From a virus, in the IMG/VR virus record IMGVR_UViG_3300043466_000488, positions 1 to 30,263 of that record: a stretch of DNA of 30,263 nucleotides; one strand, written 5' to 3'. How positions within the stretch are numbered: position 1 is the first letter of the stretch; every line of letters starts with the position of its first letter. Shown here piece by piece: positions 13,757 to 23,606 of the stretch. The notes beneath the pieces are model-generated. The model was not told the DNA's origin and searched no databases. It saw nothing but the letters and a program-made list of their open reading frames with translations. The translations under genes were made by a program, and so were the position numbers.

Positions 13757-13792
13757 AAAAAAAAGAACCCACACTGATTGCAGCAGGTGGGT
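13757..13792 (-). terminator. Rho-independent terminator
   Basis: On the minus strand ACCCAC and GTGGGT (13787-13792 with 13767-13772) form a 6-bp stem with a 14-nt loop and are followed by TTCTTTTTTTT. It closes a short transcript that could start at the promoter at 13861-13869. Confidence 0.65.
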
Positions 13793-13854
13793 CTAATTGT
13801 AGCAGGTTTGCTATAATCAAACCCGAATAAATACTGCAATTATCTAATCGGATT
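13757..13854 (-). ncRNA. Candidate small RNA (~95 nt)
   Basis: The stretch lies between a Bacteroidota-type -7 box (13861-13869) and a T-rich terminator (13757-13792) and has no start codon with a sensible frame. It contains a perfect hairpin, GGTTTG with CAAACC around a 7-nt loop (13805-13823), and two copies of ATTGYAGCAGGT on the plus strand (13777-13788 and 13796-13807). The RNA end points are inferred. It could equally be a double terminator without separate function. Confidence 0.35.
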
Positions 13855-13860
13855 GACTCA

Positions 13861-13869
13861 GCAAAAATA
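13861..13869 (-). promoter_or_regulatory. Bacteroidota-type -7 box
   Basis: TATTTTTGC on the minus strand matches TAnnTTTGY. The upstream -33 region is weak (GTTAG instead of TTG at about the right distance). It lies directly downstream of the terminator at 13911-13933, where a new transcript would have to start. Confidence 0.4.
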
Positions 13870-21716: not shown

Positions 21717-22480
21717 TATTTTGATTTTAAAAGTTTATCAAAGTAATCGGCAACCGCCATCCGATAGCACTGATGCTCCATGTAGTCATCATCCTTTAAC
21801 TTGTTTTTTATGTCAATCTTGTCCTGCCTTGAACCTTCAAACATTTTATCGTTCATTGCCTTTAGGACCTTATCGTAGGTGTCCTCAACCTCTACAATAA
21901 TTTTACCTCGCTTGTGCAGGATATGAAAGACATCAATTCCAAAAACAATGCTATCCCAAATGCGAAACTTAGAGTAACAATCAAACGCAGTTTCTATCTT
22001 TTCATCATCGGTAACAAATCTTGGTTGCCACTTGGAATCTTGCTCAACTGGTTTAATCTCATTTAGTTTCTGCATCCCATACCTTGCAAAAGACCTAAGT
22101 AACCTATGCAAGTACAGGACTGAAAAGTTCTGATAGGTTTCCGATTCCATATCAAGTTTTCCCTTACTTGCTAAGTCAAAAGCAAGGGTTAATTCACCGA
22201 CCTTGATGTTTGGGTATTCATCAACGATTGACTTATACATAACCGATAGTTCCTCTTTATTGGGTATCTTATCTCCCTTGATGCCAAGTTTGTGCATACC
22301 CCTTATAAGTTCATCAACGACAAGAGCAATGCTTACTGTGTTTAACTTTTCCGATGTCCTTGCAAGTTTAAAGCGTTCCAAATCCACCGCTTCGGATTCT
22401 GTCAATCTCGGAGAAGTAGTCATGGAGTTCGTTCCGTTTCTCATTATAGATGTCAAAGTTTGACTTAGTGCTTGTTCCAT
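21716..22480 (-). CDS. Protein of unknown function in the replication module
   Basis: 254 aa, starting MEQALSQTLTSIMRNGTNSM; M20 is an alternative start. Its first 37 codons overlap the end of the replication-initiator-like gene. It is mostly helical ('VALVVDELIRGMHKLGIKGDKIPNKEELSVMYKSIVDEYP', 'LYLHRLLRSFARYG') with no P-loop, so it is not a DnaC-type ATPase. The position after the initiator suggests a helicase-loading or replication accessory role, but this is only context. Confidence 0.6.
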   Translation of the reverse strand: MEQALSQTLTSIMRNGTNSMTTSPRLTESEAVDLERFKLARTSEKLNTVSIALVVDELIRGMHKLGIKGDKIPNKEELSVMYKSIVDEYPNIKVGELTLAFDLASKGKLDMESETYQNFSVLYLHRLLRSFARYGMQKLNEIKPVEQDSKWQPRFVTDDEKIETAFDCYSKFRIWDSIVFGIDVFHILHKRGKIIVEVEDTYDKVLKAMNDKMFEGSRQDKIDIKNKLKDDDYMEHQCYRMAVADYFDKLLKSK

Positions 22481-23126
22481 TTTTAGTTTCTTTAAGTTTA
22501 AATAATCCTTTGTAATTGTTTGATATGCTTTGATTTATAACTTTTTTAGCAGTTTCTAAATCACCTCCCGAAAGTTCAACCAAGTTGTTTATGGCAGTTT
22601 GTTCAGTCTTAGCAGACTTAAACTTGTTTCCATGCTCAACCTTTTTATATTCCATCCAACCTTTCCAAACATTTTCCCAATCATCAGAAATAAACTCTAA
22701 TTCTTTTATTTGTATTAAATCTTTCTTTTGTATGGAATTAGTCTTTTGTATAATGGCACTTTCACCGAAGTCGGTAATTTCCGAAGTCGGGTTTTCCCGA
22801 ACTCGGATAGGTTCACTTTCGGCAGGGATGTCATAGACAATATGATTCCAACCTACAAATCTTCCAGTGGTTTGGTCATGCATCTTAATTGACAAGATAT
22901 AACCTTTAGACTGCAACCCCTTAAATGCCCTGTCTATACTCCCAGGTTTATCAGGAAGGTTGTTGTACAGATTCTTTTTGTAAATGACCCAATCCGTTGG
23001 AAGTGATAATAAATAACTCAAAAGACCTTTTTCATCAAGAGACAGAGACTTGGACTTTATCAACTCATTTGGTAAAGTCGTAAACCTTTCGGTTGATTTG
23101 CTCTTTACAATTTGTCCAGTATTCAT
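22368..23126 (-). CDS. Replication-initiator-like protein (winged helix plus DnaD-like C-terminus)
   Basis: 252 aa. The N-terminus 'FTTLPNELIKSKSLSLDEKGLLSYLLSLPTDWVIYKKNL' followed by 'SIDRAFKGLQSKGYILSI' is the RepA/DnaD-type winged-helix domain of plasmid- and phage-type initiators. After a linker, residues ~150-215 ('WENVWKGWMEYKKVEHGNKFKSAKTEQTAI', 'VINQSISNNYKGLF') form the C-terminal 'W..W..yk...' module that ends in 'QSI.NNykGlf', as in DnaD-like C-domains. It is preceded by a consensus promoter (23241-23270) and a structured ~108-nt leader. Confidence 0.7.
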   Translation of the reverse strand: MNTGQIVKSKSTERFTTLPNELIKSKSLSLDEKGLLSYLLSLPTDWVIYKKNLYNNLPDKPGSIDRAFKGLQSKGYILSIKMHDQTTGRFVGWNHIVYDIPAESEPIRVRENPTSEITDFGESAIIQKTNSIQKKDLIQIKELEFISDDWENVWKGWMEYKKVEHGNKFKSAKTEQTAINNLVELSGGDLETAKKVINQSISNNYKGLFKLKETKNGTSTKSNFDIYNEKRNELHDYFSEIDRIRSGGFGTL

Positions 23127-23236
23127 AAAAAAAATACCTTAAAAAGGTTCGGGGGAAACAGGTCAGCTTTCGCAAACCTCCAAACCTTTCTAAGGCATTA
23201 ATAAGTTTATCTTGCACTTGGGTTTCCCTACCAAGT
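23127..23236 (-). promoter_or_regulatory. Structured 5' leader with alternative pairings (candidate attenuator)
   Basis: Read on the minus strand, hairpins are: ACTTGG/CCAAGT (23231-23236 with 23216-23221); a GNRA hairpin closed by GC-GAAA-GC with AGGT/ACCT (23160-23179); and ACCTT-TTT-AAGGT (23136-23148) followed by eight T that run into the ATG. The upstream AAAGGTT (23183-23189) can instead pair with AACCTTT (23143-23149), breaking the last hairpin, and GGGAAAC (23222-23228) can pair with GTTTCCC (23153-23159). Such exclusive pairings are typical of attenuators. The ligand or trigger, if any, is unknown. Confidence 0.5.
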
Positions 23237-23240
23237 ACTC

Positions 23241-23270
23241 CAAATATAACATTTTATTTAACATCTTCAA
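23241..23270 (-). promoter_or_regulatory. Consensus Bacteroidota promoter for the replication gene
   Basis: On the minus strand TTG (23268-23270), exactly 19 nt, then TATATTTG (23241-23248). This is the best match to TTG-N19-TAnnTTTG in the window. The predicted start is near 23234. Confidence 0.7.
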
Positions 23271-23502
23271 CTTTTTTCTTAACTCGGACCGCATATGTTT
23301 TGCCATCAAGTCTGCTGATAACCTTGCGACCTACCTGCCGTAAATCGCTAATCTTATTTGGCGGATATCCCATAAAGTTGCAAACGCACTTACCCGACCG
23401 ATATGTAACCGCTTTCTTTCTGCGTTCTTCAATGTCATCAATGCTAAGGTCGTAGACTAAATACTCAACTGCATTCTCTAAATGATATGTTATGTCCTTC
23501 AA
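23254..23502 (-). CDS. 82-aa protein of unknown function (TTG start)
   Basis: I start it at the TTG at 23502, which overlaps the TGA of the preceding microgene (TTGA); the upstream GTG at 23589 would read through that microgene in another frame. Sequence: helical N-half (KDITYHLENAVEYLVYDLSI), then 'CVCNFMGYPPNKISDLRQVGRKVISRL' and a lysine-rich end. The 'IDDIEERRKKAVTYRSGKCVC' part may bind nucleic acid. The promoter of the next gene lies across its 3' end. Confidence 0.55.
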   Translation of the reverse strand: MKDITYHLENAVEYLVYDLSIDDIEERRKKAVTYRSGKCVCNFMGYPPNKISDLRQVGRKVISRLDGKTYAVRVKKKVEDVK

Positions 23503-23606
23503 AACTTTAATTTTATTAATGAGATAATACTTGCTCCAATATAGAAAAAGATTGCCAATGGGATTGCTACTAAAATGAAATAAACCCACTCAAAGATTCT
23601 TTTCAT
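23499..23606 (-). CDS. 35-aa single-helix membrane microprotein
   Basis: ATG at 23606; starts MKRIFEWVYFILVAIPLAIF and ends GASIISLIKLKF. One hydrophobic helix (about residues 7-24) after a basic N-terminus. It starts 1 nt after the stop of the nuclease-like gene and its TGA overlaps the TTG start of the following gene, so it fills the operon without gaps. Function unknown. Confidence 0.6.
   Translation of the reverse strand: MKRIFEWVYFILVAIPLAIFFYIGASIISLIKLKF

Follow-up and report, generated by a model that had tools for sequence, protein, structure and literature searches.

Which kind of control, if any, is exerted by the untranslated RNA ahead of a phage replication gene is the question raised by positions 23127-23270 of the window, the whole 30,263-nt stretch of DNA analyzed (IMG/VR record IMGVR_UViG_3300043466_000488). 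We consider the leader at 23127-23238 (minus strand) to be probably a promoter-proximal transcription attenuator with a cis kissing-hairpin pair, and a conserved, newly recognized phage element (probability about 0.6). Its helices, the kissing pair (the kiss), the U tract, the linkage to the operon and the recurrence of the element at a second locus are established. The features of the leader, in 5' to 3' order and followed by the first gene, are listed below.

23241-23270 (-): promoter, TTG (-33), N19 and TATATTTG (-7); overlaps the 3' end of the ORF at 23254-23589
23214-23238 (-): HP1, the 5'-terminal hairpin GUACUUGG-UA-GGGAAAC-CCAAGUGC; 98.4% of alignment cells paired, one two-sided pair
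23222-23228 (-): kissing strand K, GGGAAAC, in the HP1 loop; partner at 23159-23153
23133-23199 (-): T, terminator-like hairpin with a 19-bp stem, AAUGCCUUAGAAAGGUUUG / CGAACCUUUUUAAGGUAUU; identified by covariation
23161-23179 (-): P3, hairpin AGGUUUGC-GAAA-GCUGACCU inside T; 100% paired, one two-sided pair
23153-23159 (-): kissing strand K', GUUUCCC, in a bulge within T; identified by complementarity to K
23127-23134 (-): U tract (U8), abutting the start codon; an RNA of ~105 nt is predicted to end here
22368-23126 (-): first gene of the operon, encoding a replication-initiation-like protein with an HTH_36-like N-terminus (PHROG, Pfam)

The sequence-only reading of this locus had claimed a TTG-N19-TATATTTG promoter, ~108 nt of untranslated RNA and eight T before the ATG, and each was found. 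The promoter lies at 23270-23241 on the minus strand and is a good match to the Bacteroidetes -33/-7 consensus, TTTG/TANNTTTG, so that by sequence it belongs with the sigma-ABfr promoters. In Bacteroidetes, transcription begins 4-5 nt past the -7 element (PMC6847099); by this spacing rule, the start would fall at about 23236-23235. About 107-110 nt precede the ATG at 23126, and the U8 at 23134-23127 directly adjoins it. TAnnTT[TC]G is present in 52 of 58 leaders, and the U tract is kept throughout, with a median of 8 U per 10 nt after the T stem (58 leaders). Solely from the promoter type, the host group would be Bacteroidota. In leaders L030-L071, the promoter spacer harbors an inverted repeat, ACAACC-N6-GGTTGT (TTGACAACCTCGCGTGGTTGTTTTATGTTTG), a possible repressor operator.

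The leader RNA up to the ATG has a minimum free energy of -39 kcal/mol, compared with -22.9 ± 3.6 for shuffled sequences (z = -4.5). It is laid out as HP1, then the long hairpin T, which encloses a smaller hairpin and has a bulge of 7-8 nt, then U8 and the ATG. Three local hairpins had been described previously. The 5' hairpin and the GCGAAAGC mini-hairpin are present, but the third is only a part of the longer T, and the proposed local terminator ACCUU-UUU-AAGGU is simply the bottom of the 19-bp hairpin AAUGCCUUAGAAAGGUUUG : CGAACCUUUUUAAGGUAUU. In relatives, 100% of the T-stem cells are paired, with a compensatory pair at columns 63/102. Two longer-range pairings had also been put forward as alternatives to the local structure. 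The complementarity of AAAGGTT:AACCTTT exists, but it belongs to the middle of the T stem and is not its alternative; GGGAAAC:GTTTCCC likewise exists, as a kissing helix from the HP1 loop to the T bulge that leaves HP1 and the T stem free to form as well. Mutually exclusive folds are thus unsupported, because covariation shows both pairings to be compatible with the rest. The mini-hairpin of the window does carry a GNRA loop (GAAA), but this is not conserved, relatives having GCAAGAGC, GCAAAAGC and GCGUAGGC. In view of the relatives' loops and the covariation of the long T, the three-local-hairpin model and the significance of the GNRA loop were dropped.

The kiss was assessed in 78 distinct leaders upstream of related replication genes, a set drawn from IMG/VR with two scans by protein similarity and one by DNA pattern. 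A leader was scored as having a kiss when an early hairpin loop could form 7 or more Watson-Crick pairs with a loop of the U-tract hairpin. Kisses of at least 7 nt were present in 58 of the 78 leaders versus 23 of 1560 dinucleotide shuffles (1.5%), and in nine further leaders a kiss is visible by eye but lies under the script thresholds. Six relatives among the 78 (L019-L021, L038, L064 and L121) are leaderless, with coding sequence reaching the ATG; since L019, L020 and L021 are close relatives of the gene, the leader is not essential. When hairpins were picked blind to complementarity, own loops matched over at least 6 nt in 72% of cases and swapped loops in 7.8%. The independent kisses include GUGGAAC:GUUCCAC, GUAGUAUG:CAUACUAC, GAGUCAG:CUGACUC, GUGGCUU:AAGCCAC, GAACCAC:GUGGUUC, GAGCAAC:GUUGCUC, AUGCAG:CUGCAU and GUAGAGG:CCUCUAC, and the otherwise near-identical leaders L136 and L138 carry UGCGACC:GGUCGCA and UCUCACC:GGUGAGA, respectively.

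Within the window clade, 99.7% of cells are paired and two-sided changes occur in all four helices, the kiss included; the K/K' helix itself is 100% paired, with two-sided changes in 2 of 7 pairs. Sliding the partners by 1-3 columns reduced pairing to 32-53%. A second clade has 96.0% of cells paired and a two-sided change in 10 of 26 pairs. All covariation counts were accompanied by slide and shuffle controls. Compensatory changes in related phages, which had been proposed as a check on the earlier reading, were therefore found, and on that point it withstood refutation. Summed over three alignments, in which cells are not independent events, the kiss cells show 65 two-sided changes, 0 one-sided changes and 0 G-U, and the stem cells 77 two-sided and 62 one-sided changes. 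As the kiss never changes to G-U, strict Watson-Crick pairing appears to be demanded; the stems do tolerate G-U, which points to the RNA of the minus strand as the molecule under selection.

The product of the first gene matches PHROG replication initiation families (E 6e-15 to 1e-5), and its Pfam HTH_36 match falls below the cut-off of that family. The leader is not tied to this gene. In L027 it precedes an unrelated 186-aa ORF, with the replication gene coming second, in L103 it sits ahead of an 85-aa ORF, and in L072 and L073 it lies ahead of replication genes with unrelated N-termini. Because it is kept before unrelated first genes, the leader belongs to the start of the operon rather than to one gene. 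The distance from the end of T to the ATG is 6-21 nt in replication leaders. In 26 of 57 cases, the gene upstream of the leader is transcribed divergently, which rules out T as a mere terminator of the upstream gene. As a separate observation on the replication protein (window 22368-23126 (-); L027, L072 and L073), unrelated N-terminal domains are swapped on a common C-terminus, with the leader keeping its place.

An architecture scan of 1.9 Mb of sequence revealed a second, independent kissing-hairpin/terminator element (element 2) in the window, at 13868-13757 (-), flanked by the structural genes and by a 53-aa ORF that follows the terminase gene.

13862-13869 (-): -7 box of element 2, TATTTTTG, from sequence
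13823-13851 (-): HP1 of element 2, CCGAUUAGAUA-[AUUGCAG]-UAUUUAUUCGG, from the architecture scan and alignment
13834-13840 (-): K of element 2, AUUGCAG, pairing with CUGCAAU
13767-13792 (-): terminator hairpin of element 2, ACCCAC-CUG-[CUGCAAU]-CAG-U-GUGGGU; 98.6% of cells paired
13777-13783 (-): K' of element 2, CUGCAAU, the apical loop, pairing with K
13757-13764 (-): U8 tract of element 2, then about 200 nt of non-coding sequence before the next ORF

The -33 box of element 2 is weak in the window and reads TTGG in relatives. In the alignment of 23 relatives, 96.9% of cells are paired overall, and the kiss is 100% paired with two-sided changes in 7 of 7 pairs. Each kiss strand has a diversity of 0.32, against 0.155 for the stems, and the kiss changes are perfectly compensated. 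Among 46 distinct copies there are 18 kiss sequences on a more constant framework, and all 34 distinct loop pairs match themselves (34/34), whereas swapped combinations match in 18%. On the framework tree, K changes 28 times, which is near random (shuffles: mean 35, minimum 30); L375 and L376 are 3 framework bases apart, yet have K = GTTGCGT and GTAGGAG, respectively. A covariance model of element 2 found one strong copy per record in 15 of 40 virus records, together with weak matches exactly on the replication leaders L045 and L046 (E 0.03-0.05), a hint that the two elements are related. An extra match of the model in G009 was discarded as chance, since it lacks the kissing pair and the stretch looks coding. 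We also excluded a cross-pairing circuit between the two elements of the window, as their K strands are unrelated (GGGAAAC versus AUUGCAG). No ORF directly follows element 2; on its 3' side come about 200-300 nt that are non-coding and fall into several unrelated types, and this distance from any ORF would also fit a small-RNA gene.

Searches for known counterparts gave little. No Rfam 15 family reached its gathering score for the window and 27 related loci, and scans at relaxed E-values returned only far sub-threshold matches. At the nucleotide level, no relative turned up among cultured phages and plasmids, protein searches with the replication gene and the terminase brought up only distant cultured relatives, and two scans of 84,980 GTDB genomes found no relatives. 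The distant gut phages L161-L163 have overlapping genes at this position and the leader is absent. No description of such an element was found in the literature available as open-licence full text.

The locus comprises a promoter, a structured leader, and a hairpin with a U tract ahead of the first gene, which is the build of an attenuator leader. The earlier proposal of an attenuator or riboswitch-like switch thus fits in its first half, which is also backed by covariation, but not in riboswitch-like switching. The HP1 loop forms a strictly Watson-Crick kissing helix of 6-9 bp with a loop in T. In the mechanism we propose, RNA polymerase would stop at T in a fraction of transcripts, releasing an RNA of ~105 nt closed by the kiss; the kiss would set the frequency of this stop, and readthrough past T would lead to expression of the replication genes. 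Our guess is that the kiss stabilizes T, making the default state off; because the kiss is compatible with T and not mutually exclusive with it, the sequence does not tell in which direction it would act. Transcription control is favored over translation control by the varied first genes, the divergent upstream genes and the U tract after T. Our best reading is that the element is a new variant of the attenuator leaders, and it looks like an RNA control switch of a new kind, with a matching code under unusual evolutionary pressure.

The put sites of phage HK022 are antiterminator RNAs, hairpin pairs with which RNA polymerase reads through terminators; like the present elements, they are phage RNA hairpins found close to the promoter at the beginning of two operons. 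Unlike the present elements, put is not known to have a terminator with a U tract or a hypervariable kiss. The CI RNA of satellite phage P4 terminates its own replication transcript (PMC4825925). The P4 system (CI RNA/seqA-seqC) has, like ours, an untranslated leader ahead of phage replication genes, and its premature termination yields a small RNA (PMC4825925), as is predicted here. As to internal complementarity, CI RNA pairs with two target sites in P4, seqA and seqC, whereas one complementary pair of short hairpin loops was found here; the present element is duplicated at a second locus, has no sequence relation to P4 and is known from sequence alone. Plasmid pT181 likewise has a terminator in the leader of its replication initiator gene, repC, along with hairpins that kiss (PMC4878617). 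In that system, the partner in the kiss is a separate antisense RNA, and their pairing toggles between anti-terminator and terminator, whereas the two loops described here belong to a single transcript and their kiss can form alongside the terminator; an anti-terminator pairing of the pT181 type, exclusive with the terminator, was rejected on covariation. A consensus scan, which could miss weaker promoters, found no promoter-like site opposite the leader. Finally, the repZ leader of IncI-complex plasmids also has loop pairing inside a replication leader, with the loop sequence setting incompatibility (PMC10724649), but it employs a translational pseudoknot and a counter-transcribed RNAI and, unlike here, has no terminator before the gene.

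The strict and hypervariable kiss resembles plasmid antisense loops and phage immunity RNAs, which makes a trans role of the released RNA the main rival to the attenuator, though in our judgment an unlikely one. The terminated RNA of ~105 nt would kiss nascent leaders of the same type, from the phage's own copies or a superinfecting phage, and force termination; the hypervariable K would then be a specificity for immunity or incompatibility, as in P4 CI RNA or plasmid RNAI. The excess diversity of K/K' over the stems, the 18 K types in 46 copies, the near-random K changes on the framework tree, the differing kisses of L375/L376 and of L136/L138, and the lack of G-U in the kiss all speak for it, as does the finding that in IncK plasmids loop changes by themselves switch compatibility (PMC10724649). 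However, cis pairing at a distance of 70-80 nt should outcompete trans pairing, the lack of relatives in GTDB genomes leaves no sign of a resident, immune state, and the K variation could also stem from recombination or drift. Carrying this a step further, to phage self-recognition, lowers the odds again: through the K/K' code of the released RNA, a phage would recognize genomes of identical code as its own kind and stop transcription of their replication operon and of the second unit. If so, kiss codes would diversify like incompatibility or immunity groups.

Translation control, in which T and the kiss mask the ribosome-binding region of the first gene, would suit the 6-21 nt between T and the ATG in replication leaders and the finding that in Flavobacterium structure near the start lowers translation (PMC6847099). 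We think it quite improbable, as the ATG distance and the identity of the first gene vary, element 2 shares the architecture yet has no ORF for about 200-300 nt, and the U tract would not be needed. The concerted two-sided changes without intermediates, and the location at a replication gene, could instead reflect DNA-level or mutational effects, the K/K' inverted repeat serving replication or recombination or being kept perfect by template switching. But in the stems G-U pairing, as read on this strand, is kept (62 cells with a one-sided change), the promoter and U tract are positioned as for a transcript, and the complementarity is limited to hairpin loops, which leaves such an artefact with very little likelihood. 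Scarcely credible is the stronger form of the sequence-only reading, a ligand-binding riboswitch with alternative pairings. A structured leader and terminator ahead of a gene would accord with it, but neither a mutually exclusive conserved pairing nor a conserved unpaired core was seen, the loops are hypervariable with the kissing loop as the most variable part, and no Rfam match emerged even at relaxed E-values. We therefore rejected the riboswitch class, all pairings being compatible and no aptamer core seen.

The leader is a covariation-backed RNA element without a described family. It marks the replication operon in a large group of phages not yet cultured, and many of them have another copy at a second locus. 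Should it act as a transcription attenuator, replication in these phages would be gated by RNA and nothing else. The likeness of the hypervariable kiss to plasmid-incompatibility or phage-immunity RNAs, drawn by analogy, is to us the most interesting point. With its strict complementarity and fast change, the kiss lends itself to direct tests of how RNA specificity evolves under diversifying pressure, and the leaders make up a natural collection of orthogonal kissing pairs, each with its terminator attached.

Some further observations concern the surroundings of element 2. In the close relative L297 (4600-4800), the terminase gene runs straight into the structural genes; as the 53-aa ORF and element 2 are both missing there, the two together look like an insertable cassette. 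The ~200-300 nt after element 2 (window 13756-13553 (-)) are structured-looking and non-coding, with at least four unrelated types across phages. Such stretches were noted in L299, L375, L384, L390, L392, L402, L404 and L406, and the one in L374 includes a tRNA-like segment. Those scanned had no match in Rfam, and they are possibly phage non-coding RNAs not known so far. Just past the terminase gene, at 14245-14200 (-) of the window, four runs of five to six G could form a G-quadruplex.
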